Shown piece after piece: positions 23,556 to 47,310 of a stretch of 64,000 bases of DNA. The notes beneath the pieces were generated by a model that saw only the letters and a list, made by a program, of their open reading frames with translations, was not told where the DNA came from and did no database searches. Source of the stretch: Zetaproteobacteria bacterium (GTDB taxonomy: Bacteria > Pseudomonadota > Zetaproteobacteria > Mariprofundales > Mariprofundaceae); contig PEAA01000007.1 in NCBI GenBank assembly GCA_002753275.1, forward strand, positions 1 through 64,000, given 5' to 3'. Made by a program: the position numbers and the translations under genes. Position 1 is the stretch's first letter, and each line of letters begins with the position of its first letter.

Positions 23556-23664
23556 GATTGCTCCTTTGTGTAGGATTGCCAGCATTATAGCATGCATACT
23601 GTTCGATGAAAGGATTTGTGCGGGCAATGTGTAGATCTGTATGTCGTTTTTGGGGAGTCGTGCG

Positions 23665-24663
23665 ATGTTGGGGCAAATGAAAAAAATGGTTCATTGGATG
23701 ATGATGGTTGCGGTTTCGCTTGTTTTGGCGGCATGTCAAAATCAAGATGAAAAGCCCTCCGTGGTGGTATCGACACAAAAGTCGGAGGTGAATATTGGCC
23801 GTTTGATTTGTGGTGGTCACTTGCCGTTGGCTGTGGTTGAGTCAATGTATCAAGACGATCTACCCTTTCATCTTCGTACTGTGCAAAATCATAGCTGGGA
23901 TGATGTGGTGCAAGATATGAAATCGGGCAAGTTGGCGGGTACTTTCATCCTTTCCCCACTGGCAATGAATTTGATCAAAGAGGGGTTGCCGGCCAAGATT
24001 GTTTTGATGGGCGATCGTAATGGCAATGGCTTTGTGTTGAGTAAAAAGTATCATGCCATTGCCAATTTGGCGGAGCAACCTGTCATTATCGCCGTGCCAC
24101 ATCTCTATTCGCAGCATCATGTGTTGGCTGTGATGGCGCTTAAACAGGCGGGTGTTCCTTTAAGTAAGGTGACGATTCTACCTATGCCTCCACGCGATAT
24201 GGTCAACTCGCTAAGCCGAGGGGAGATCGATGGTTTTGTGGTAGGCGAGCCTGAGGGAAACCGTTCGATTTCAGTTGATGTTGGGTGGATGGCGACAATT
24301 TCTCCGATGATTTGGTCCAACCACATGGACCATGTTTTTATTGCATCGGATGCCTTTATTGAAGAACACCCGGAACAGTTGCAGGCGTTGGTTCAAGCAC
24401 TTCTGAAAGCAGGTGCTTTTATTGAAGAACATCCGCATGAAGCAGCCAAAATGGGCGAGGATTATACCGGGGCAAAAGCCGATGTTTTTGAACAAGTATT
24501 AAGTGATCCGCCAGATTGGATTCGTTATGATGACATGGTTCCAACCGCTACAGACTTGCGCGATATGGCTGAAAAGTTGGTTGAAATGGGGCTTTGGGAT
24601 GAGGTGCCCGCTGATTTGGCGCGTTACGCGGATCTACGCTTCGTGCAAGCGGTCGGGAAATAG
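23665..24663 (+). CDS. NMT1/NrtA-like periplasmic binding lipoprotein without a transporter
   Basis: The protein (about 332 residues) begins with a lipoprotein signal whose lipobox LAAC puts the lipidated cysteine near residue 24. The mature part resembles the nitrate/sulfonate/taurine-binding family: a GHLPLAVVESMYQDD start, DMKSGKLAGTFILSPLAMNLIKEG, and VGEPEGN, in the place of the usual VGEPW-like motif. No ABC permease or ATPase gene is near; the next two genes are a histidine kinase and a kinase/response regulator. A role as the ligand-sensing partner of that kinase is inference. Start 23665 has GGGGAG eight bases upstream. Confidence 0.82.
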   Translation: MLGQMKKMVHWMMMVAVSLVLAACQNQDEKPSVVVSTQKSEVNIGRLICGGHLPLAVVESMYQDDLPFHLRTVQNHSWDDVVQDMKSGKLAGTFILSPLAMNLIKEGLPAKIVLMGDRNGNGFVLSKKYHAIANLAEQPVIIAVPHLYSQHHVLAVMALKQAGVPLSKVTILPMPPRDMVNSLSRGEIDGFVVGEPEGNRSISVDVGWMATISPMIWSNHMDHVFIASDAFIEEHPEQLQALVQALLKAGAFIEEHPHEAAKMGEDYTGAKADVFEQVLSDPPDWIRYDDMVPTATDLRDMAEKLVEMGLWDEVPADLARYADLRFVQAVGK

Positions 24664-24703
24664 GCGATCGATTCAATGATGTTTGATCTGTAGGGGATGT
24701 TTT

Positions 24704-27523
24704 ATGCATGCAGGTTGGTTTGATCAGCGAACCTACTCTTTAAAAACGATATGGTTAATGTTCCTCGGTATCGTTTTTTTGCTACCCTCATCGCTGGGGG
24801 CGATTTGGGTCTATCAACACTTTTCTGACAAGGTGCTTGATGAGGTGTTGATGCGTGAAAAGATTTTTCACCATCGTATTGTCGATGTACTTAATGAGGA
24901 GTCTCGGCGTATGGTGTCGCAATTGCAGTCACATGCCGAGCGGCTGAGTTTTGGCCTTGATTCAGGCTCCTCTTTTGAAGCGTTGCGTTGGAAAATCCGT
25001 GACTGGACTGGTAGTGAGCCTTCCATGATCAAACTTTATATCTATCGCACGGATACCCAGACGATGGAAATATTGGCAGAGCATGGCTTTAGCCAAGTTG
25101 TTAAGGGTAGCAGCCCCGCGGTGATTGTGCCGCAACATGGCCGGCTCTTTGTCGGCACGCCGTATGTGGAAGAGGATGGACATTACCATTTTGTTTTGAG
25201 TGTTCCATTGACGCCTGCAAAAGTGGGTGAACAACGGGATGTGTTGATCGCGGTGTATGATATCGCACGCTTGCAAAAGTATGTGCTACATCAATTGGAA
25301 CGAAGCCGTCGCGAAGAACATAACGCTACAGATTTCTTTTGGGTCGATAACCGCGGAACCCTATTGTTTGATGCCGGTGATTATTCCCATGGGGCAATGA
25401 TGACCCATCTTCCTATTGTGCGCCGATTGCTTGCTGAAGAGCAGTGGTATACCAAGGAACAATATCAAGGGGTTGAACGGGGTGCTGTGTATGGTGTCGC
25501 GAGCCATGCAGAGCCTTTGCAGTGGGGCATAATCTCTGAAGTGTCTGTGCAAAAGATTGAGGATTTGGTTGATCAGGAGCTCTATCCTGTTGTTGCCATT
25601 CTAGCATTGGTGATGTTGATGATGACGCTTGTGGGGATCTGGGCGTTACGAAAAATGTTGCAACCAGTCTACCACTTGATGCAAGCAAGCAATAAAATGG
25701 CCAGTGGTGAATTTCAAGTGGAGATGTATGGTTCCCATATTGCTGAATTGCATCAGCTTGAGATCGATTTTGTTCGTATGTCTGCAATGGTGGCGATGCG
25801 CGATCAGCAGTTGGAGAAGGAGCGGGATCAACTGATCCTTGCTAATGAATATATGGATACGGTCTTTGATGCGATGTCCGATGCGGTGTTTGTGGTTGAT
25901 AAAAAAATGGCCATTAATGGCTTGAATCGTTATGCCAGTCGGCGGTTTGGTTATGCTGAAGATCAGTTGCAGGGCAAGTCGATTATCTCACTGCTCGAAG
26001 GGGAGACGAGTACAGAAGTTCTCTTTCGTAGCTCATCCTTTGTCGATCTTTCGCGCCATCTTCAAACGGTGATTGATTCAAAAGAACACGATTTTTGGCG
26101 CTTGCTTGATCATGCCCACCTTGCTTGCATGGTCGTGAATGAACAGGGTGATATCATCTATTCCAATGCAATGTTGGGTGAGCGGCTTGGTTATCGCTCC
26201 AGAGAACTTTTGGGTAAAGGTGTGGAGGTGCTATTGCCTGCATCCATGCGCAAGAGTCATGTGTGTTTTCGAGAACAGTTTATGTTGGAAAGCAAGGGCC
26301 GGGTTATGGGCAGAATGGACAGCCCTTTAAGTGCTTGTCATAAAACGGGTCTGTCGTTGGATGTTTGTGTCGGCTTATCCAAACTGGTGATGGGGAGACG
26401 CGAATTTGTTTTAAGTACGCTCTATTTCCCCGAGATTGATCCCGATTGGTTTTTGATTCAGTTGACAGAGTTTGGCGCACTGTTTTTTGAGGAGAAACCG
26501 GTGGTTGATTTGATGATGGTTACGGAGGATCAGAGTCGTGTTCCTGTGTTGATTTCGCCCTCGTTGATTTATAAAAATGGTGAAATTGATGGGGCTGTGT
26601 TGATTGCCAAAGATGTGACGGATCAAAAAAAAGCGATTGATCGGGCTCGAATGTTAGCAGCTGATGCGGCCTATAAATCGGGTGTGGCAGAAATTTCGAC
26701 AACGGTATTACATAATATTGGCAATGCGGTGAACAATCTGTCGCACCGTATTCAGTCTCTGGAGGAGGTCTCTCCTGAGTTGGAAAATTTATCGGTGATT
26801 CTTGATGGCCTTGCGCTACGCATGCAGGCGTTGCAAGAGGCATCGATGCCGTTATCGCAGCAACTTTGGGGGCAACAATGGCAGCAGGATTTGATGGTGT
26901 TGACACGCCTGCCTCAGGTGCTGCGTGATATGGCAGATAGCGATGTTAGAGTCAATTTGAGTGATATTGCACATCATGTCGATCACATTAAGGAGATTAT
27001 TCAGGCGCAACAATCGATGATGGCCGGTGAAAAAGTGTATATGGAAGCACTTGATATGGCCGCAGTTGTTGAAGAGTGCTTGCAGTTTAATGCATTGTCG
27101 TTGCGTAAACGAAATATCACGGTATTGCTACGCAACGAGCTGGCACACCCCATTGTGTTGGAATTGCCAAAAGTCGCGTTGTTGCAAGCCTTTGGTAATC
27201 TGGTGAAAAATGGTTGGGAAGCCATTGAGACGCGTTCAGATTGGGGAAGTGAGGAGTGTACTGGGAAGATGCGTGTGCATTTACGCTTGTTGGCCAATCC
27301 ACGCCGGCTTGAGGTTGAATTTGTTGATAATGGCGTGGGCATAGAGGCGGAGCGTTTAACGAAGATTTTCTCTTTCGGTGAATCAGATAAGTTGCGTGGC
27401 TCAGGTTTTGGATTACATTCGGTTGCGCTGTTTTGTCAGTCTATCCATGCGCATGTTGAAGCGCGTAGCGAAGGTTTGGGATTTGGGACATCGATGGTGA
27501 TCCAGTTTCCTTTGGAGGGGTAA
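24704..27523 (+). CDS. Membrane sensor histidine kinase with periplasmic domain, HAMP and tandem PAS
   Basis: A 939-residue kinase. One helix near 16-40 and a second near 295-315 enclose a periplasmic sensor domain (Cache-like). HAMP follows, then PAS domains near 380-450 and 460-560 plus a further PAS-like segment, a dimerisation helix with the candidate phospho-histidine near 669 in VLHNIGNAVNN, and a HATPase domain with NLVKNGWEA (N box), DNGVGI and GSGFGLHS at the end. There is no receiver. Its stop overlaps the ATG of the next gene by one base, so the pair is probably co-translated. ATG 24704 is preceded by TAGGGGAT. Confidence 0.9.
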   Translation: MHAGWFDQRTYSLKTIWLMFLGIVFLLPSSLGAIWVYQHFSDKVLDEVLMREKIFHHRIVDVLNEESRRMVSQLQSHAERLSFGLDSGSSFEALRWKIRDWTGSEPSMIKLYIYRTDTQTMEILAEHGFSQVVKGSSPAVIVPQHGRLFVGTPYVEEDGHYHFVLSVPLTPAKVGEQRDVLIAVYDIARLQKYVLHQLERSRREEHNATDFFWVDNRGTLLFDAGDYSHGAMMTHLPIVRRLLAEEQWYTKEQYQGVERGAVYGVASHAEPLQWGIISEVSVQKIEDLVDQELYPVVAILALVMLMMTLVGIWALRKMLQPVYHLMQASNKMASGEFQVEMYGSHIAELHQLEIDFVRMSAMVAMRDQQLEKERDQLILANEYMDTVFDAMSDAVFVVDKKMAINGLNRYASRRFGYAEDQLQGKSIISLLEGETSTEVLFRSSSFVDLSRHLQTVIDSKEHDFWRLLDHAHLACMVVNEQGDIIYSNAMLGERLGYRSRELLGKGVEVLLPASMRKSHVCFREQFMLESKGRVMGRMDSPLSACHKTGLSLDVCVGLSKLVMGRREFVLSTLYFPEIDPDWFLIQLTEFGALFFEEKPVVDLMMVTEDQSRVPVLISPSLIYKNGEIDGAVLIAKDVTDQKKAIDRARMLAADAAYKSGVAEISTTVLHNIGNAVNNLSHRIQSLEEVSPELENLSVILDGLALRMQALQEASMPLSQQLWGQQWQQDLMVLTRLPQVLRDMADSDVRVNLSDIAHHVDHIKEIIQAQQSMMAGEKVYMEALDMAAVVEECLQFNALSLRKRNITVLLRNELAHPIVLELPKVALLQAFGNLVKNGWEAIETRSDWGSEECTGKMRVHLRLLANPRRLEVEFVDNGVGIEAERLTKIFSFGESDKLRGSGFGLHSVALFCQSIHAHVEARSEGLGFGTSMVIQFPLEG

Positions 27524-29598
27524 TGGTATTGAATAATCGAATTTTGGTGATCGAAGATGATTTGGAGACGCAGAAAAGTTATGCGGCTATTTTTGCGCCG
27601 AAAATGAGTCGGACACAGCAACTGTTGGGTTATCAGTCCTCAACCGATCATACATCCAAGTATCAAGTGGCGATGGCTTCTCAAGGGGAAGAGGGTGTGA
27701 CAAAGGTGCAGAAGGCCGTACAAAATGGCGAGCCTTATGTGTTGGCGTTTATCGATATGTTAATGCCGCCTGGAATTGATGGGCTTGAGGCCGCGAGGCA
27801 GATTCGTGCCATTGATCCTAAAATCTATATTGTCATTGTGACGGCCTATTCGGATCGAAGTACGCAAGAGATAGATGATGCTTTGCAGCAAAATATTCTC
27901 TTTTTGCGTAAGCCTTTTGAACGGGATGAGATTTTGCAGTTGGCGCGCAACTTTTCTCGGGCATGGGATCGAGATCACCAACTTACTCAAAGTTTGCAGG
28001 CGTTACAAGCGTCTGAAAAGAAGTACCATGATCTTTTTGAGGGCTCAACCGATGCGTTGCTGATTGTCCATCCACTTGATGGTCATATCCTGGATTGTAA
28101 TGCTGCAGCCTTAAGTAAGTTTGATGTTTTTAGTGTTCAGTCACTTGGAGAACAACGCCTTGGGCAGTTGTCTCCAATACATCAAGCCGATGGCGCGGTT
28201 TCAAACACATGCTTTCAAACCCATTTGAAAGAGGCTTTGTTTAATCATCATACCTCGTTTGAGTGGCAGTTTTCTGGTGTTTCGGGGAGGCGTTTTCTCG
28301 CCTCCGTGGTGATCGTGTCGATGGAACTTGGTGATGAAACGGTCTTGCGTGTTGCGATTCGTGATATTTCTGCATTGAAAGCGTTGGAGTTAGAAAACAA
28401 ACGCTATGAGCAGCGTATGCAAGAGCAGAGCCGCCTTGCTTCCAGTCAAAATATTTTAGGTGCGATGGCTCATGAGTTAAATAATGCGCTGACTCCAGCC
28501 TTTGTGAATATTGATATGCTGAAAGTGACTTTAGGACCCTATCATGCGGCTCGTTCGATGGTGGATGCTTTGGCCGAAGCAACCAGGACCATTTCGCAAC
28601 TGTGTAAAAAGATGCGTCTCTATTCTGGCGATGTACAAATTCATCATCCACAAGATATGGATGTGATGGCGTTATGGCAAAACTCTGCAGGATTGCAACA
28701 TATGCAGTCGTTTCCGTTGGTTCAAGTGAACTTGATTTGTGAAGAGTCTCTTCCTCATGTGCGAATGGATGAAGCTTTGGTTGTGCAAGCGTTGCAACAG
28801 CTGTTGCATAATGGTGCTGAATCGATGGAGGGGCATGGAGAGATTACGGTCGCTATGCGTAAGGTCAATATCAAACAACCGATGATTGATCGATCGGTCT
28901 TCCCTTGCGATGAGGCAACGCCTGGGGATTATTTGAAAATTGAGGTGACCGATTCAGGTTGTGGGATTGCAGCCAATTTACAGGGTAAAATTTTTGAGCC
29001 GTTTTATACAACCCATTTTCATGGGCGTGGTTTAGGGCTGGGTCTAGTTTTGAGTATTGTCCATGCGCACCATGGATTGTTGATGTTTGAATCGACAGAA
29101 GGGCTTGGAACAACCATGAGCATATTTCTCCCGCTATTTTCTAACCAAGGGGGAACGGTTTATGCTCCGAGAGCTGTTGAGGGGGATGCTGTAAGCCATC
29201 AGGCAAAAAACCATCGTATTTTGGTTGTTGATGATGATGAAATGGTGCGTGATGTCTTGAAGCTGGTACTGGGTGATTTGGGCTATGAAGTGGTGATGGC
29301 TACCAATGGTCAGGAGGGGCTTGAACTTTATGCGGCAACTCCTGATCTCGATGGGGTTATTTTGGACATGATGATGCCGGTGATGACGGGTGACCAGTGC
29401 TTTAAAGGGCTTAAGGAGATCAATCCCCATGTAAAAGTGGTGTTGTCATCAGGTTATTGTGATGCGAATTTATTACGGGAGAGTGATTGGAGCGGTTTGG
29501 CCGGAATGCTTGAAAAGCCTTACCATATGAAAAGTTTGAAGCAGACCGTTGAAAATGTTTTTGGGGTTGTGGATCATTCTAAGCTGAACCGTTCATAA
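27523..29598 (+). CDS. Soluble hybrid: receiver-PAS-histidine kinase-receiver
   Basis: The 691-residue cytoplasmic protein starts with a receiver (IEDD at about 10-13, phospho-Asp near 77 in FIDMLMPPGIDG, LRKPF), followed by a PAS domain near 170-290, a dimerisation helix with His near 317 in MAHELNNALTP, a HATPase domain (LHNGAESM, DSGCGI, GRGLGLGL) and a C-terminal receiver (VVDDDE, phospho-Asp near 615 in ILDMMMPVMTG, EKPY). The first receiver can accept phosphate from the upstream kinase and the kinase core may be a phosphatase or second kinase. No output DNA-binding or enzymatic domain is present, so the final target is elsewhere. Confidence 0.92.
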   Translation: MVLNNRILVIEDDLETQKSYAAIFAPKMSRTQQLLGYQSSTDHTSKYQVAMASQGEEGVTKVQKAVQNGEPYVLAFIDMLMPPGIDGLEAARQIRAIDPKIYIVIVTAYSDRSTQEIDDALQQNILFLRKPFERDEILQLARNFSRAWDRDHQLTQSLQALQASEKKYHDLFEGSTDALLIVHPLDGHILDCNAAALSKFDVFSVQSLGEQRLGQLSPIHQADGAVSNTCFQTHLKEALFNHHTSFEWQFSGVSGRRFLASVVIVSMELGDETVLRVAIRDISALKALELENKRYEQRMQEQSRLASSQNILGAMAHELNNALTPAFVNIDMLKVTLGPYHAARSMVDALAEATRTISQLCKKMRLYSGDVQIHHPQDMDVMALWQNSAGLQHMQSFPLVQVNLICEESLPHVRMDEALVVQALQQLLHNGAESMEGHGEITVAMRKVNIKQPMIDRSVFPCDEATPGDYLKIEVTDSGCGIAANLQGKIFEPFYTTHFHGRGLGLGLVLSIVHAHHGLLMFESTEGLGTTMSIFLPLFSNQGGTVYAPRAVEGDAVSHQAKNHRILVVDDDEMVRDVLKLVLGDLGYEVVMATNGQEGLELYAATPDLDGVILDMMMPVMTGDQCFKGLKEINPHVKVVLSSGYCDANLLRESDWSGLAGMLEKPYHMKSLKQTVENVFGVVDHSKLNRS

Positions 29599-39090: not shown

Positions 39091-40764
39091 ATGGCAGTGA
39101 ATCAAGAGAAGATGTTTTCTGATGATCAAATTTTGGTTTCGCGTACCGATACGCGCGGTATTATTACTTATGCCAATGAGGCTTTTTGCGAAGTCGCTGG
39201 ATACAATGAAGAGGATTTGATTGGTAAGCCACACAATATTATTCGTCATCCCGATATGCCTTCCGCAGCATTTAAAGATCTTTGGGACACGGTGCGCGCA
39301 GGGCGATGCTGGACAGGGATTGTGAAAAACTACACTAAAGATGGTGGCTACTATTGGGTGCGCGCCAATGTTTCGCCTGAAATGAATGATCAAGGTGTCA
39401 GTGGGTTTATTTCGGTGCGTACCAAGCCGACGCGGCAAGAGGTTCAGTCTGCTGAGAGTTTATACCGTCAACTTAAGGCCAATCAAGCCAAGCTACCCTC
39501 AACACTTGGCTTTAATTTGATTAATCGTATTAGCCTTTATCAAGCCTTGGCATGGATTGGATTGATGATTGCGGTGCCGTTAGGAATGAATGTGGCGATG
39601 GTGTTGGGTCTTTTTCAAGACATTCCGATTGTGAAAGTGTTGGCAATCTTGATGGAAGCGATTCCGTTGATCTTCCTTTTTTCCATGGCAACACGCTCGC
39701 GTCACGCATTGGAACGATTGCAGCATGGCATGAAACGGATGATGCAAGGCCATTACGATGCGGATCTACATTTGTTGCGTTTGGATGAGTTTGCCGATGT
39801 GTTTACACTGGCCAATGCAATGCAGTACCAAACTTACTTTAAAGTCGATGAGATGCGCTTGATGCATAAAAAGGCCAATGATGCGATGGCAGCCAAGCTT
39901 GCCGAACAAGAGGCTGAGTCGAAGTTGGTGCGCGAGTTTGAGCTGAAAGCACAAGAGGTCTCTTCGGTGCTGGCCTCCTCTTCTGAAGAGGTGAGCGTTG
40001 CGGCATCAAGCCTTGCGGCAACAGCGGAAGAGTTGACGGCACAAGTGGGCATCGTTGAAGAGGGGTCAACGGAGGGTATTTCCCATGTGGAGATGACAGC
40101 CGCAGCAACCGAAGAGGTGAGTGCCACCATTCAAGATATCACCGATCGGGTGCAGAAGGCTTCAGAAATCGCTGATCAGGGCATGGTCGAAGCGAAAAAT
40201 ACCAATGCGATCGTTTCGCGTCTGTCGCAAGTCTCTGAAGAGATTGGTTCGGTGGTCAATACGATCAATGAGATCGCCGAGCAGACCAATCTACTTGCAC
40301 TGAATGCTTCTATTGAGGCTGCGCGTGCTGGCGATGCCGGGCGAGGATTTGCGGTGGTTGCCAATGAAGTGAAAGATTTGGCGCAGCAGACAGCCAAAGC
40401 CACCGGCGATATTGGCAAACAGATTGCGGGGATGCAGGCAGAGAGTGGGGCAGTGGTCAAAGCACTTGAAAAAATTTCGGGGATTATTGCGCAAATTAAT
40501 GAGCATACAGGTTCAGTTTCTGAGGCGATGAACCAGCAGGCGCAAGCTGTCGCAGAAATTTCTGATGGGGCGCAGCGTGCCAGCTATGGAATGAATAATG
40601 TGAAATCTTCTATCGGAGATTTGGGTATCGCTGCCAACGATACAGGGCGGATGTCTTCTGAAATGGTGGTGGCTTCTGAAGATTTGGCACGAATTGCTTC
40701 CGAGCAGCAAACCATGATTCATACATTCCTGAATGGTTTAAGTCGTGTTCGGGGTAATGTGTAA
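39091..40764 (+). CDS. Aer-like methyl-accepting chemotaxis protein with N-terminal PAS
   Basis: The N-terminal 120 residues form a PAS domain very close to Aer: YANEAFCEVAGYNEEDL, KPHNIIRHPDMPSAAFKDLW and GIVKNYTKDGGYYWVRAN, the last being the FAD-binding stretch of Aer aerotaxis receptors. Two adjacent hydrophobic segments (about 150-205) anchor it without a periplasmic domain; the rest is a signalling coiled coil with the tip INEIAEQTNLLALNASIEAARAGDAGRGFAVVA-type sequence. The C-terminus lacks a CheR-tethering pentapeptide. FAD binding and redox sensing are known for Aer; for this protein they are inferred. GGAGGGG precedes the ATG. Confidence 0.92.
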   Translation: MAVNQEKMFSDDQILVSRTDTRGIITYANEAFCEVAGYNEEDLIGKPHNIIRHPDMPSAAFKDLWDTVRAGRCWTGIVKNYTKDGGYYWVRANVSPEMNDQGVSGFISVRTKPTRQEVQSAESLYRQLKANQAKLPSTLGFNLINRISLYQALAWIGLMIAVPLGMNVAMVLGLFQDIPIVKVLAILMEAIPLIFLFSMATRSRHALERLQHGMKRMMQGHYDADLHLLRLDEFADVFTLANAMQYQTYFKVDEMRLMHKKANDAMAAKLAEQEAESKLVREFELKAQEVSSVLASSSEEVSVAASSLAATAEELTAQVGIVEEGSTEGISHVEMTAAATEEVSATIQDITDRVQKASEIADQGMVEAKNTNAIVSRLSQVSEEIGSVVNTINEIAEQTNLLALNASIEAARAGDAGRGFAVVANEVKDLAQQTAKATGDIGKQIAGMQAESGAVVKALEKISGIIAQINEHTGSVSEAMNQQAQAVAEISDGAQRASYGMNNVKSSIGDLGIAANDTGRMSSEMVVASEDLARIASEQQTMIHTFLNGLSRVRGNV

Positions 40765-40812
40765 TTTGGCATAACTTCCTCCTATATGATTGAAGAAAGT
40801 AGAGGTTAACGG

Positions 40813-43800
40813 ATGCGTCCAATCTCGATGTCTGTGCAGTTTGCTATCGTTACCACCGTTTTGGCGTTGGTTTCTGCCGCGATCACGAGCTACTTTTTTT
40901 ATCAACAAACTGAACAACAGCGAATGCAAACCCATGTGGAGCGCTTGCAAGAGGCGCTTCATGAGGATCACTATTTGATAGAGAGTCGAGTTGCCCGTTT
41001 GCGTGATGGTGTGAATGGTTTGGTGAATGCTTCTGCTGTTGTTCGCTATGGTGATGGGATGATCGCGGGTGAACGGGCTCTTGCAGAACTCACCGATCTT
41101 TTTAAACAGTCTCTGCAGCAATATATTGATTATACCCATTTGCGGATGATTGATGCGGTATCAATGCCTGGGCGTGAGTTGTTAAGGCTTGAGCGGACGG
41201 GGGATGATATTGTGCGGGTTGCTGAAGGAGCTTTAGGAGATGCATCTCAGCAGTTGGTGTTTACTGAAACAGCAAAGCTTTCGCCAGGGCAAATTTATCT
41301 CTCTGCAATTCATTTCAATCGCGAGGATGGCGTTATTGCCCAGCCTTATACCCCAGTGTTTTGTTTGGCAACACCCATTTTTGATTTGCAGCATCATTTG
41401 AAAGCAGTGCTTGTTGTCGATGTTAATGCTGGCGTGTTGATGCCACCGACGGGTATTCACCCTTGGGTCAGTGATTTTTTTATTGCCGATGCTTTTGGAC
41501 GCTACCTCGTTCATTCGCAAGCGGAAAAGCAGCTTGCTTTTGAGACGGGGCAGCAAGCGTCTGTAATGCACGATTACGAGATTGATATTGCAGATTTTCT
41601 AAAACGGCATGCCGACCCTGTTGTTCGTGATCAAGGGTGGATGGGTGAGCCTTTTCTTGGTGTGGGTGCATCCAATGAATTGTTACAGATGCGCAAGTTT
41701 TATATCGACAAACTCCATCCTGAACAGTTTTTGTTGATGGGGGTGGTTGCATCGGGCACCGTCATGGCGTATTGGGTCGATGGCGTTGTTCATGATGTGT
41801 TGCTTTGGGCTGGGTTTTTGTGTTTGGCTATTCTTCTGATGGGTGGGTTGATTGGATATTGGTTGTGTCGCCCATTGCATCAGCTTGAAGTGGTGGTTGA
41901 GACCATTGGGGATGGAATGTTGGTTGAAATCCCGCATCTCTCGGGGGCCAAAGAGGTTGTATCCCTTTCTCGTGCCATTACCAAGATGGTTGATGCGGTG
42001 ACTCAATCAAGAAAAGAGCTTTATAAAAGTTCAGCGCTTCTTGATAGTCAAGTGCGCGAGCGCACTTTGGATTTAAAGAGTGTAAAACATCAATTAGAAG
42101 ATAAAAATGAGGTGTTGCGACAAGCGTTAATGATTGCCGAGCAGGCGACGGCGATGCGAGGGCAATTTTTAGCGGCAATGAGCCATGAAATTCGCACCCC
42201 TTTGAATGGCGTGTTGGGGTTGACAGAACTTTTACTCGATACCCCATTGAATGAAATGCAGCGTAATCAGCTGGAAACCATTCGGGCATCAGGGAAAACA
42301 CTTTTAACAATTCTGAATGATGTGCTTGATTTTAGTAAAATTGAATCGGGCAAGTTTGAGTTGAATTTAGGCGAATTTGATGTGCATGCATTGATTCATC
42401 GTGTGGTGAATTTGCAGTCTGCTGTGGCAGAGAGCAAAGGACTGCTTTTGATGGTAGAGGAGGCAAATCTGCAAACGATGGTGGTTGGAGATAGTAACCG
42501 TTTGGAACAGATTCTTGCCAACTTATTAAGTAATGCCATTAAATTTACAGAATCGGGTGAAGTGGTGTTGGTGTTAGAGCGGGTTGCTGATGATGCATCG
42601 TATTTAACGCTACAGTTTACGGTTCGAGATACTGGGATTGGTATGGATGAATTGGAGCAGCAGCGATTGTTTCAAGAGTTTGTGCAAGGAAATTCGGCAA
42701 TCAGTAGTCGATTTGGTGGTACAGGTCTTGGTTTGACGATTTCTCAGCGCCTGGTTCAGATGATGGGGGGGAATATTGAGGTGCAGAGTTGTAAAGGAGC
42801 CGGCTCCTCCTTTCAGTTTTATCTCACCTTTCCCAAAGGCTCCCTGTTTGATCCATCGATGATGGTGACATTGGAGCACTGTACTGTTTTGCTCGCAGGT
42901 GATGATGTGGACGGCTTGCAGTTTTGCGCAGATGCGTTGCAATCGTTACAGATGGATGTCGATTTGATCGCTAGAAATTGTAGCGATGAGGAGATTCTGG
43001 AGAGGCTTCAGCGTGGAAATGAGCGGGCTTCATTGTACCATTTTGTCGTGCTGGATGAGGATGCGAAAGGGATGCGTTTGGCATCATTGATTCGTGCGTG
43101 TCCGCAGCTTGTAGACTTATGTCTGTTGGTTTATCGGTCAACCTATGATCGAGAAAAAGACCCGATAGTTGCCGAATATTTTGACTTGCAGTTGCACCGC
43201 GGAGCTTCTCAAGAGGCGTTGCGCAAGGGGTTGTTATCGATATTGCACGGCGGAGATGCGCCATTTTCTGTAAGTTCCTTGCATCATGATGGTGATGTTT
43301 ATCATCTGCGCAGTGAGCGTATTTTGTTGGTTGAAGATAATTTAGTGAATCAACAAGTGGCGAAAGGTATGTTACGCAAGTGTGGAATCGAACATGTTGA
43401 TGTGGCGAACCATGGCAAAGAAGGGGTCGCGATGTTTGAGCAATCGCACTATGACCTTGTTTTGATGGATGTGCAGATGCCAGAGATGGATGGATATGCT
43501 GCCACGCGGGCTATCCGTGCATTGGAAATGCAGCGTGGGCAGCGTGCGATCCCCATTATTGCATTGACAGCACACGCGTTTGATGAAGAACGAATGAAAG
43601 GGCAATCTGCAGGGATGGATGATCATCTTTCCAAACCTTTTACAGTGAATGCACTGAATAATATTTTTAACACATGGCTTGGAGGCTCGCCTATGAATGA
43701 AACATCATCCACTGAAGAAGCATTGGGCAATCATGATCAAAAGCTTGCGGGGGGGGGGCGTTCGCCTTCGATTGATATTCCAACCTTAGCCGATATGCGA

Positions 43801-44109
43801 GAGGCTTTAGGTTGTGGGGTTGGTCCTATTCTCGATATTTTTGCAGCGCAGCTTCCTGAAAAAAAAGGGTCTATCCAAGAGGCGATGGCTACGGAAAACT
43901 GGTTTGAGGTTGCCGAAAATGCGCATGCTTTGAAAGGAAGTGGTCGTAGTATGGGGGCGTTAATCTTGGGAGACTTGGCTGCAACGGTTGAACGCATGGC
44001 TCGGGAGCAGGAGTTGGAAGAACTTGGCGGTGCGATTGAAGCACTCTATGTTGAAATTGATCGCTGTGAGATTGCATTGCAAGACGCGGGGCTCGATCAA
44101 TACCGTTAA
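40813..44109 (+). CDS. Hybrid sensor histidine kinase: periplasmic sensor, HAMP, kinase, two receivers (one degenerate), Hpt
   Basis: A 1098-residue membrane kinase. Helices near 9-29 and 310-350 enclose a periplasmic sensor of about 280 residues; HAMP and a coiled coil follow. The kinase has His about 458 in MSHEIRTPLNG, LLSNAIKFTESG, DTGIGM and GTGLGLTIS. Residues about 680-800 resemble a receiver that has lost its acidic pocket. A true receiver (ILLVEDN at about 836, phospho-Asp in LMDVQMPEMDG near 884, LSKPF) and a terminal Hpt with His about 1038 in AHALKGSG complete a self-contained phosphorelay. A run of ten G at 43749-43758 lies in the linker before Hpt. It stands where CheA would be expected. 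Confidence 0.93.
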   Translation: MRPISMSVQFAIVTTVLALVSAAITSYFFYQQTEQQRMQTHVERLQEALHEDHYLIESRVARLRDGVNGLVNASAVVRYGDGMIAGERALAELTDLFKQSLQQYIDYTHLRMIDAVSMPGRELLRLERTGDDIVRVAEGALGDASQQLVFTETAKLSPGQIYLSAIHFNREDGVIAQPYTPVFCLATPIFDLQHHLKAVLVVDVNAGVLMPPTGIHPWVSDFFIADAFGRYLVHSQAEKQLAFETGQQASVMHDYEIDIADFLKRHADPVVRDQGWMGEPFLGVGASNELLQMRKFYIDKLHPEQFLLMGVVASGTVMAYWVDGVVHDVLLWAGFLCLAILLMGGLIGYWLCRPLHQLEVVVETIGDGMLVEIPHLSGAKEVVSLSRAITKMVDAVTQSRKELYKSSALLDSQVRERTLDLKSVKHQLEDKNEVLRQALMIAEQATAMRGQFLAAMSHEIRTPLNGVLGLTELLLDTPLNEMQRNQLETIRASGKTLLTILNDVLDFSKIESGKFELNLGEFDVHALIHRVVNLQSAVAESKGLLLMVEEANLQTMVVGDSNRLEQILANLLSNAIKFTESGEVVLVLERVADDASYLTLQFTVRDTGIGMDELEQQRLFQEFVQGNSAISSRFGGTGLGLTISQRLVQMMGGNIEVQSCKGAGSSFQFYLTFPKGSLFDPSMMVTLEHCTVLLAGDDVDGLQFCADALQSLQMDVDLIARNCSDEEILERLQRGNERASLYHFVVLDEDAKGMRLASLIRACPQLVDLCLLVYRSTYDREKDPIVAEYFDLQLHRGASQEALRKGLLSILHGGDAPFSVSSLHHDGDVYHLRSERILLVEDNLVNQQVAKGMLRKCGIEHVDVANHGKEGVAMFEQSHYDLVLMDVQMPEMDGYAATRAIRALEMQRGQRAIPIIALTAHAFDEERMKGQSAGMDDHLSKPFTVNALNNIFNTWLGGSPMNETSSTEEALGNHDQKLAGGGRSPSIDIPTLADMREALGCGVGPILDIFAAQLPEKKGSIQEAMATENWFEVAENAHALKGSGRSMGALILGDLAATVERMAREQELEELGGAIEALYVEIDRCEIALQDAGLDQYR

Positions 44110-44140
44110 TGTGCTATTGCGATAAAAAAGGGGGGGAGGA

Positions 44141-45610
44141 GTGCCGCTATATCAGTGGGGAAAGTCGAGTTTATCATTGGGGTCGACCCATAGTTGTACT
44201 GGAAACCGATGCGATGATTTGATAAAAGATGCAGAAAGTGCGGATCCTGCACGCAGACGGCAGGCGGCTCTTGATCTTGCTTATTGTAGAAATGGTAAGC
44301 GTGTCTTGCCTGAAATTGTTTTGAAAGAACGGCATGTTGCGGTGCGTGAAACGATGTTTGACTCGTTGTTGCATTTGGTGGATGCAGCCATGGTTGAACG
44401 ATTGTTACCGATGTTGCGTTCAAATGATGCAATGTTGAGAAATGGTGCGATTGAACTTTTTCAACAGATTCCAGAACTTTTTGCTCCACATGTATCAGGT
44501 TTGTTGGCGGATGACGATTCGGATGTTCGTATTTTTACGATCAATGTGATTCAGCACTTGCACCATACGATGGTGCCAAGCTGGTTGCTTGAAGTGATTC
44601 GCCATGACCGCCATGTGAATGTGGTCGCGGCGGCATTGAATGCTCTGGCTGATTTTGCGCGTCCCAACATGGTAGGAGATCTGTTGGCGGTTAAAAAACG
44701 CTTTGAAGATCAGCCTTATCTTCATTTTGCGGTCGATACGGTGATGTCTCGCACAAAGCGTGGGGTTGCGATTGATGCGACGGGGATTACCGATAGTGAA
44801 TTTGAGAGTTTTCGAGATCTTTTTTATGCACGAACAGGAATTTTGTTTAAGGAGAACAAGCGTTACTTTGTTGATAAGCGCTTGATTGATCGTATTCATA
44901 AAACAGGGCATCAATCTTTTGCCGATTATTTTCGCTATGTTCGTTTGGCTGAATCAGCGCATGAGTTTCAAATTTTAACCAATGTGATGACCGTCAATGA
45001 AACCTATTTTTTTCGTGATGATGGACATTTTAAAGCGATGGTTCATTCGATGCTTGATCAAATTGTTGCCAACAAGCGCAAGGGTGAGATGATTCGGATT
45101 TGGTCAGTACCATCCTCAACAGGTGAAGAACCCTATTCAATTGCGCTTTATTTGCTTGAGTATTGGCCAAAGTTGTCCGATTGGAATGTGCAAATTATTG
45201 CTTCGGATATTAATACCGAGGTGCTTGAGCGTTGTAATAAAGGGATCTATTCAAAGCATGCCTTACGCTTTGTGCCGCAACCGTTGGTGCGTAAATATTT
45301 TGCGGAGTTGGCGAATGGTGAATATCAAATCAACTTGGCACTGCGTAAAAGTGTGAATTTCTTTTTGGGGTCAATTTTAGATGCAAAATATCAGGCAGAT
45401 GTTCAGCATGTGGATATCATTTTTTGTAGAAACTTGTTGATCTATTTTGATGATGTGTCCCGGAAACAGGCTGTTGAGACCCTTTATGGTCTCTTAAATC
45501 CCGGAGGTTTTGTGTTATTAGGAAGCATGGAGTCGATGTCCCGAATATCTTCTCGATTTCAAATTCAAAAGATAGATTCCAGTTTGGTTTATCAGAAGGG
45601 GCTGGTATGA
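44141..45610 (+). CDS. CheR-type methyltransferase with an N-terminal HEAT-like repeat domain
   Basis: The 489-residue protein joins two parts. Residues about 20-195 are alpha-helical HEAT-like repeats (DPARRRQAALDLAY, VAVRETMFDSLLHLVDA, NDAMLRNGAIELFQQIPEL, DSDVRIFTINVIQHL, VNVVAAALNALADF). Residues about 215-489 are a CheR methyltransferase with FRDLFYARTGILFKENKRYFVDKRL, MTVNETYFFRD, SAM motif IWSVPSSTGEEPYSIA and IIFCRNLLIYFD. CheR usually reads WSAxCSTGEEPY; here the cysteine is serine. The start is GTG at 44141, touching a GGGGGGGAGGA ribosome site. It overlaps cheY by four bases. Confidence 0.9.
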   Translation: MPLYQWGKSSLSLGSTHSCTGNRCDDLIKDAESADPARRRQAALDLAYCRNGKRVLPEIVLKERHVAVRETMFDSLLHLVDAAMVERLLPMLRSNDAMLRNGAIELFQQIPELFAPHVSGLLADDDSDVRIFTINVIQHLHHTMVPSWLLEVIRHDRHVNVVAAALNALADFARPNMVGDLLAVKKRFEDQPYLHFAVDTVMSRTKRGVAIDATGITDSEFESFRDLFYARTGILFKENKRYFVDKRLIDRIHKTGHQSFADYFRYVRLAESAHEFQILTNVMTVNETYFFRDDGHFKAMVHSMLDQIVANKRKGEMIRIWSVPSSTGEEPYSIALYLLEYWPKLSDWNVQIIASDINTEVLERCNKGIYSKHALRFVPQPLVRKYFAELANGEYQINLALRKSVNFFLGSILDAKYQADVQHVDIIFCRNLLIYFDDVSRKQAVETLYGLLNPGGFVLLGSMESMSRISSRFQIQKIDSSLVYQKGLV

Positions 45611-45975
45611 CTGCCAAGATTATGATTGTTGATGATGAGATGATGATTCGTAAGTATTATGTGATGTTGCTAGAGTCGAAGGGTTATACTACGCTTGAGG
45701 CGGCTAATGGCTACGAGGCCTTGGAAAAAATATTGATTGATCCATGTGATGTGTTGATGGTGGATATCAATATGCCTAAGATGGATGGTTTGACGATGGT
45801 CAAAGAGATTCGTAGTCGTGATGGCTTTCATCATTTGCCGGTCATTATGATTAGTGCGGAAGAGGGTGATGCTGATAAAGATTCAGCATTTGAGCATGGG
45901 GTGAGTATTTATTTGCAAAAACCGGTCAAAGCGGACTTGTTGTTGCAGAGTGTTGCACAGTTATTAATAAAGTAG
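45607..45975 (+). CDS. Single-domain response regulator (CheY-like)
   Basis: The 122-residue receiver has the acidic pair in VDDEMM, phospho-Asp about 52-53 in LMVDINMPKMDG, Ser in MISAEEG and the lysine in LQKPVKAD. No output domain follows, as in CheY. It starts within the cheR stop (ATGA) and lies 11 bases before the Hpt-REC gene, all in one operon. Whether it acts on the flagellar motor or only in the phosphorelay is open. Confidence 0.92.
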   Translation: MTAKIMIVDDEMMIRKYYVMLLESKGYTTLEAANGYEALEKILIDPCDVLMVDINMPKMDGLTMVKEIRSRDGFHHLPVIMISAEEGDADKDSAFEHGVSIYLQKPVKADLLLQSVAQLLIK

Positions 45976-45986
45976 AGAGGCGTTTT

Positions 45987-46679
45987 ATGCCGGGTGAGAT
46001 GTTGAAAAATATAGATCCAGAGGTTCTTCCTTTAATTCCTAAGTATTTGACGCATCGATTGAATGATCTTGATGGTATTCGTTGTGCACTGGCCGATGAT
46101 GATTTTGCAACGGTGACACGCTTCGGTCATAGCATGAAAGGTTCTGGCTCCAGTTATGGGCTGGATCCAATCAGTGAGATGGGGGCTTTGATTGAAAAAG
46201 CGGGCTTGGCTAAAGATGTTGATCGTGTTTTGGATGTTTTGACGGAACTGGAAGACTTTCTTAAAAAAGTTCTTGACTCTGAAGATTTAAATTTGAACGC
46301 TGATCGTAATGTTCGTCGTGTGTTGTGTGTTGATGACAATGAAGATGTGACAGACTTGCTTGAAATGATTTTGATCAAAGGTGGTTTGGATGTTGAAGTG
46401 ATTCATGATGCCGAGCTGGGTCTGGAGCGTATGAGTCGTGGTGGCATCGATCTTTTGTTGCTCGATGTCAGTATGCCGAAAATGAATGGCTTTGAGTTTA
46501 TGGAAAAAATGAATGCCTGTGGCAGCAAGGTCCCTGTTGTTTTTTTAACGGCGAGTCAATCGGAAGAGGATGAGTTGCGCGGCTTAACACTTGGTGCAAG
46601 GGATTATATTATTAAACCATTCTCTTCCGCGTTGATCCATAGCCGTGTGGTAGGTTTAATGCACCGTCTCTATGCATAG
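45987..46679 (+). CDS. Hpt-receiver fusion protein
   Basis: Residues about 10-100 form an Hpt domain with the phospho-accepting His in FGHSMKGSGSSYG (near 48); residues about 108-230 form a receiver with VDDNED, phospho-Asp in LLLDVSMPKMNG (near 158), FLTAS and IIKPFSS. The Hpt-first order is unusual for a short stand-alone protein. Its stop overlaps the following cheB by eight bases in a different frame, so it may supply the receiver that CheB lacks. GAGAGGCG precedes the ATG. Confidence 0.9.
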   Translation: MPGEMLKNIDPEVLPLIPKYLTHRLNDLDGIRCALADDDFATVTRFGHSMKGSGSSYGLDPISEMGALIEKAGLAKDVDRVLDVLTELEDFLKKVLDSEDLNLNADRNVRRVLCVDDNEDVTDLLEMILIKGGLDVEVIHDAELGLERMSRGGIDLLLLDVSMPKMNGFEFMEKMNACGSKVPVVFLTASQSEEDELRGLTLGARDYIIKPFSSALIHSRVVGLMHRLYA

Positions 46680-47310
46680 CGGTGTGATTGCCCCAGATAG
46701 ATTGGCCCCGTTTCCTAAGGTTTTTAAGTCACCAGCATGTGTGGTGATCGGCAGTAGTACGGGAGGGCCGTATGCGCTGATGGCGCTTTTTGAGGGTTTT
46801 AAACAACCCTTGCCTATTCCGTTGGTTGTTGTTCAGCATATTCGTCCCCATGGCGTTCCTCCGTTGGTAAAGGCATTGGCGAGCCGTTGTTGTATGCCGA
46901 TTGAAATTGTTCAAGAGGGCGATTGCTTGCGGGCAGGTGTTATTTATATTGCCAGCTCCAATAATCAGCATTTAAGTATTTTGCATCATGCACAGCGGGG
47001 CTTGGTCGCAAATTATACGGATGAAGAGAAAAGCGAGCATTGCCGGCCAGCGGTGAATGTTTTGTTTGCATCGATGGCGCGTTTGGCGCCGCAGTTTAAA
47101 GCGATTGCTGTTGTTTTGACAGGAATGGGCAAGGATGGTGCCCAAGGTGCGGAGCAGCTTGTCAAGTCGGGCAGCGTTGTGATTGTACAGGATGAATCCT
47201 CGGCAGTGGTTTGGGGAATGCCAAGGGCCGTTGTTGAGGTTGGTGCTGCGCATAAAGTTTTATCCATTGAGCAGATTGCGATTGAAATAGAGCGGTTGGC
47301 TGCGGTGTAA
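46672..47310 (+). CDS. CheB-type protein-glutamate methylesterase without a receiver domain
   Basis: The 212-residue protein is the catalytic half of CheB. The Ser-His-Asp triad is visible in IGSSTGGPYAL, VVQHIRPHG and LTGMGKDG. Standard CheB has an N-terminal receiver that controls the esterase; here it starts with only about 20 residues before the catalytic fold, and a receiver is instead fused to Hpt in the overlapping upstream gene. It would remove methyl groups from the nearby chemoreceptor. It ends the cluster; rpsO has its own promoter downstream. Confidence 0.9.
   Translation: MHSGVIAPDRLAPFPKVFKSPACVVIGSSTGGPYALMALFEGFKQPLPIPLVVVQHIRPHGVPPLVKALASRCCMPIEIVQEGDCLRAGVIYIASSNNQHLSILHHAQRGLVANYTDEEKSEHCRPAVNVLFASMARLAPQFKAIAVVLTGMGKDGAQGAEQLVKSGSVVIVQDESSAVVWGMPRAVVEVGAAHKVLSIEQIAIEIERLAAV

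Follow-up and report, generated by a model that had tools for sequence, protein, structure and literature searches.

In textbook chemotaxis, CheA switches on CheB, which closes the adaptation feedback loop. Several described systems are close to the operon reported here. The F9 chemosensory class (V. cholerae cluster I) has as its signature DosM, a receptor with two tandem signalling domains, and CheW3, a CheW protein with three CheW domains (PMC9321776). Rare partial F9 sets without CheA have been reported, i.e. those of Nitratiruptor and Nautilia, which retain DosM and CheW3, have no CheY and have another CheA in the genome (PMC9321776). In Bacillus cereus, experiments showed that the methyltransferase RsbM modifies the hybrid kinase RsbK of the sigma-B pathway by methylating its signalling helix (PMC4574943). 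CheR-TPR proteins such as WspC of the ACF pathways join CheR to a helical-repeat domain, and the ACF clusters include a multidomain receiver protein (PMC3447774). We found nothing closer in the literature on CheB-kinase operons.

The operon lies in the window, i.e. the whole 64,000-nucleotide stretch of a Zetaproteobacteria bacterium contig that was analysed, and it resembles each of these systems in part. It has HEAT, CheR and CheY in the identical order as the F9 class, with a CheR of the F9 clade, but has no DosM, triple CheW, CheA or F9-type CheB; its HEAT repeats are fused to CheR, and a hybrid kinase and an Hpt-REC protein are added. Like the partial F9 sets it is CheA-less and F9-derived, as judged from sequence, in a genome with another CheA, but it retains HEAT-CheR and CheY without DosM and CheW3. 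Its hybrid kinase gene adjoins a protein methyltransferase gene as in RsbK-RsbM, whereas the described pair comes without receptor, CheB or Hpt-REC and its methyltransferase acts on the kinase. The fused CheR and the multidomain receiver protein (here Hpt-REC) recall the ACF pathways, but the repeats are HEAT rather than TPR and there is no CheA in the cluster. The receptor shares with Aer of E. coli a PAS close to the solved Aer PAS, the RHPDMP motif and an MCP domain, and differs in that its gene shares an operon with those of CheR, CheB and a hybrid kinase.

Composition of the operon

The following six genes make up the operon.

39091..40764, + strand: Aer-type receptor with a predicted FAD-type PAS, a membrane segment and an MCP signalling domain (Pfam PAS_3 + MCPsignal)
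40813..44109, + strand: hybrid histidine kinase with a dCache-like sensor, HisKA, HATPase, a degenerate receiver, a receiver and Hpt (Pfam, residues, kinase-core tree)
44141..45610, + strand: HEAT repeats fused to a CheR methyltransferase, of F9-class origin (Pfam, identity, tree)
45607..45975, + strand: CheY-like single receiver (Pfam), closest to the CheY encoded after CheR in F9 clusters
45987..46679, + strand: Hpt-REC protein (Pfam, residues)
46672..47310, + strand: CheB methylesterase without a receiver domain, of flagellar-type origin (Pfam, residues, tree)

An ORF check of the window placed all six ORFs on one strand at the coordinates first given, with intergenic gaps of 48, 31, -4, 11 and -8 bases in this order. 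The Pfam architectures are PAS + MCPsignal, HisKA + HATPase + REC + Hpt, HEAT_2 + CheR_N + CheR, REC, Hpt + REC and CheB, respectively. The hybrid kinase has H458 (HisKA), D886 (receiver) and the Hpt H1038 all in place; it also has a degenerate first receiver at about residues 690-830, and the match of its dCache-like sensor is weak. D53 of the CheY-like receiver, H48 (Hpt) and D160 (receiver) of Hpt-REC, the SAM motif of HEAT-CheR and the catalytic S29, H56 and D155 of CheB are present as well. The roles of these residues are presumably those generally known for the families. According to Pfam, the receiver domain is entirely absent from the 212-aa CheB. The matches listed for Hpt-REC among 78 genomes of the class are mostly to the receiver, with no close full-length relative among them. 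By consensus match only, a TTGACA-type promoter lies 83-110 bases upstream of the receptor gene, and in the stretch scanned a single strong terminator is present, after rpsO, downstream of the operon.

The first-pass annotation had described six same-strand genes with these domains, and the ORF check and Pfam agree with it. It had also reported an operon without CheA or CheW: a domain scan of all six proteins found neither, though the genome encodes both at other sites. Its gene assignments stand, but it had overlooked that CheB has no receiver and that HEAT-CheR and CheY are of F9-class origin, as argued below. The composition of the operon is thus well supported.

We searched the genome of this organism (1.86 Mb in 55 contigs, 93.9% complete) family by family and found six CheW-domain places, four CheR, four CheB and 15 MCP matches, together with three CheA genes on contigs C17, C49 and C25. 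The CheW-domain places are single CheW proteins or CheA proteins carrying one or two CheW domains. On contig C17, the genes for CheA-CheY-CheB-CheR precede those for a kinase, an HDOD protein, REC-HD, MotA, two MotB-like proteins, FliL and FliM, and so this is a flagellar cluster. The end of contig C1 encodes CheW-MCP-CheR-CheB-REC. The search for cheA, cheW and flagellar genes proposed in the first-pass annotation therefore found all of them, with one che cluster beside the flagellar genes. The same annotation had allowed that the operon could be the adaptation half of a split ordinary system, should a cheA-cheW-cheY cluster elsewhere be missing cheR and cheB. We rejected this reading, since cheR and cheB are present in both the C17 and the C1 cluster. 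The operon comes in addition to the ordinary chemotaxis clusters.

A second CheA-less set is found on contig C14 (L034:1008-8186), with a GAF hybrid kinase carrying three receivers, a divergent CheR and a REC-PAS-kinase-REC protein, in a layout resembling RsbK-RsbM.

Origins of the adaptation enzymes and the receptor

A contig search with a three-row alignment yielded at least 80 loci, while a search with a single protein as the query found no relatives. In most of the closest loci listed, the order is fixed as a DosM-like double MCP, triple CheW, REC-CheB, HEAT, CheR, REC and CheA, and CheA is followed by REC, MCP and often ParA. The gene order HEAT-CheR-CheY of the operon matches these loci. 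HEAT and CheR are separate genes in the loci listed, among which the fusion is seen in the window alone. The window CheR has 50% identity to F9 CheR and falls inside the F9 CheR clade (98/94; subclade 97/80), and the window CheY has 41-42% identity to F9 CheY versus 28% to the CheY of the flagellar cluster. Identity, tree and gene order indicate that HEAT-CheR and CheY derive from the F9 class. Among 78 genomes of the class, a HEAT-CheR pair scored above the threshold used only in the window genome and in G039, which has a full F9 cluster including CheA. In the G039 cluster, two ORFs, L072:1867-2340 (157 aa) and L068:10928-11392 (154 aa), have no Pfam match.

A complete F9 system was considered and rejected, with DosM, CheW3 and CheA all missing from the operon. 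A single MCP domain is present in the operon receptor, against the two of DosM; across the genome, each of the 15 MCP matches has a place of its own, with no two sharing a reading frame, and none of the six CheW-domain places encodes a protein with three CheW domains.

CheB has another source. In a tree of 51 CheB catalytic domains, the F9 CheBs form one group (100/100) and the CheBs encoded next to hybrid kinases, described below, form another (100/100). The window CheB pairs (92/89) with the CheB that the same genome encodes in its flagellar cluster, within a flagellar-type set (100/95), and the tree rejects it as a member of either of the other two groups. Because the window CheB sits on a long branch, its precise position is less certain. 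On this tree it is of the flagellar lineage and has lost its receiver.

The best PDB matches of the receptor are the E. coli Aer structures 31cj and 8dik (E 1.6e-56 and 7.6e-39, respectively), and from this match we predict an FAD-type PAS joined to an MCP signalling domain. The receptor tip is a canonical hairpin, and there is one canonical methylation motif, at residue 337. This motif, at -74 from the tip, is common to the window receptor and seven other MCPs of the genome, in which the length from tip to end is 139-143 residues, compared with 143 in the window receptor. An F9-type (44H) receptor was rejected because the C-terminal arm has 143 residues versus roughly 154 needed by our own arithmetic. 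As its arm length is shared with other MCPs and its tip is canonical, the receptor likely signals via a CheA encoded elsewhere in the genome.

Hybrid kinases encoded beside CheB

With the kinase sensor as the query, full-length relatives turned up within the class in G039, G094, G084, G080, G090, G086, G093 and others. In G094, G084, G080, G086 and G093, a single receiver and then a CheB of about 360 aa are encoded after the kinase (HK-REC-CheB); in G090, CheB follows the kinase at a contig end. The same CheB type adjoins hybrid kinases with NMT1 or SBP_bac_3 sensors in G023 and G092, and hence the kinase-CheB pairing persists across sensor swaps (dCache, NMT1, SBP_bac_3). In a kinase-core tree, the window, G039 and G023 kinases group with the dCache members (98/92), and the G092 core lies just outside. 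The kinase nearest to that of the window is in G039, where it has no CheB neighbour. The modules in genomes of the same family come without CheR, and among the six dCache-type modules only that of G080 has an adjacent MCP (the G090 module ends with its contig). Several of the modules represent one genus, and many of the relatives are draft genomes in which some modules are cut off by the edge of a contig. Among 399 sampled genomes of the phylum, no CheB of this type passed the threshold used outside the family. The MCP beside the G080 module (L248:10168-12681) is an Aer-type receptor of 837 aa, encoded divergently on the opposite strand.

For the four kinase-linked CheBs scanned, Pfam gave no receiver match in the N-terminal part. 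In an alignment of 47 CheBs (8 kinase-linked, 39 from che clusters), the phospho-acceptor Asp is replaced by G, A or S in all eight kinase-linked proteins, which are mutually related and do not represent eight independent events, and their acid pair is also gone. By comparison, the Asp is kept in 38 of the 39 che-cluster CheBs; the exception is L277 (G007, C10), with Ser instead. The window kinase thus belongs to the same core clade as the module kinases, while the window CheB is of another clade and is likewise without a phosphorylatable receiver. Because the window and kinase-linked CheBs differ in origin, CheB appears to have become independent of CheA at least twice, in each case near this hybrid-kinase family.

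Possible control of receptor methylation

Our best model is that the kinase phosphorelay, rather than CheA, would control methylation of the receptor. The dCache kinase would sense a periplasmic cue and autophosphorylate at H458, and the phosphate would pass via D886 and the Hpt H1038 to the CheY-like receiver and Hpt-REC. These two could act on HEAT-CheR and on the CheB without a receiver and thereby determine how far the Aer-type receptor is methylated; the receptor in turn may report redox or oxygen state through the CheA/CheW encoded elsewhere in the genome. The hybrid kinase would then be a second input tuning receptor gain. The sequences show the gene content, the intact residues, where CheR and CheB come from, the further CheA, CheW, CheR and CheB sets of the genome and the recurrence of this kinase family with a CheB that has no working receiver; we infer every phosphotransfer step, how the receivers would act on the two adaptation enzymes, that the receptor is their substrate, and its docking to another CheA. 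A mosaic operon with adaptation enzymes coupled to a hybrid-kinase phosphorelay in place of CheA is in our view plausible, if still short of probable.

We favour the phosphorelay model because the relay and catalytic residues are intact while the window CheB has lost its receiver and the kinase-linked CheBs have dead ones, because the kinase-CheB pairing survives sensor swaps and the Aer-type receptor of G080 adjoins such a kinase, and because the receptor arm and tip are standard and the other clusters retain their own CheR and CheB. The first-pass annotation had tied receptor adaptation to a phosphorelay, and this gains support from the related kinases encoded with a receiver and a dead-receiver CheB. 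The conservation of the six-gene order that it had proposed to look for in relatives was not seen: among the sampled and listed relatives, all of other genera, the exact set is found in this one genome alone, and the operon is absent upstream of rpsO in the nine relatives examined. The model is weakened by this, by modules elsewhere that have no CheR and mostly no adjacent MCP, by the missing CheB neighbour of the nearest kinase (G039) and by the single genus to which several of the modules belong.

The strongest mechanistic rival is that CheR and CheB may reversibly methylate the hybrid kinase itself, with the receptor as a bystander or a second substrate. RsbK-RsbM is a real precedent (PMC4574943), receptor-less HK-REC-CheB modules occur in genomes of the same family, and the C14 set is a second CheA-less kinase-CheR-kinase operon in the same genome. 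However, no MCP-type methylation motif is evident by eye in the kinase linker while the receptor has one, and the kinase-CheB modules are without CheR. We consider this RsbK-like reading unlikely. Simple co-location seems somewhat unlikely to us: an accessory Aer receptor and leftover F9- and flagellar-type adaptation genes could serve other CheA arrays, with the phosphorelay unrelated to them. The CheA, CheW and 14 further MCP matches encoded elsewhere, the arm length equal to that of many other MCPs of the genome and the known partial CheA-less F9 clusters (PMC9321776) would be consistent with it, but the genes overlap, their active-site residues are in place, and the kinase family recurs independently beside CheBs with dead or absent receivers.

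The first-pass annotation had also suggested that the hybrid kinase, the sole kinase in the operon, may substitute for CheA, i.e. be controlled directly by the receptor tip. We find this unsupported and very improbable, since CheA and CheW are encoded elsewhere and the receptor has a usual arm and a canonical tip. The kinase moreover has its own dCache-like sensor and HisKA dimer domain and no CheW-like docking domain, the CheA and CheW of the genome are genuine, and related kinases in most genomes have no adjoining receptor.

The phosphorelay model may extend beyond this operon. It is possible, though doubtful, that there is a family of CheA-independent modules in which sensor-swapping hybrid kinases control CheBs with dead or lost receivers, so that a separate phosphorelay sets receptor (or kinase) methylation. 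Two switchless CheB lineages near one hybrid-kinase family suggest that adaptation can pass to another signalling chain. If so, an independent sensory input would set receptor sensitivity as a second control line for chemosensory adaptation, and orphan CheR/CheB genes of other genomes would deserve the same reading.

Another kinase row in the window, at 23641-29598, encodes an NMT1-like binding protein, a PAS sensor kinase (946 aa) and a REC-PAS-kinase-REC protein (691 aa), and these three genes are placed between citrate synthase and HrcA.
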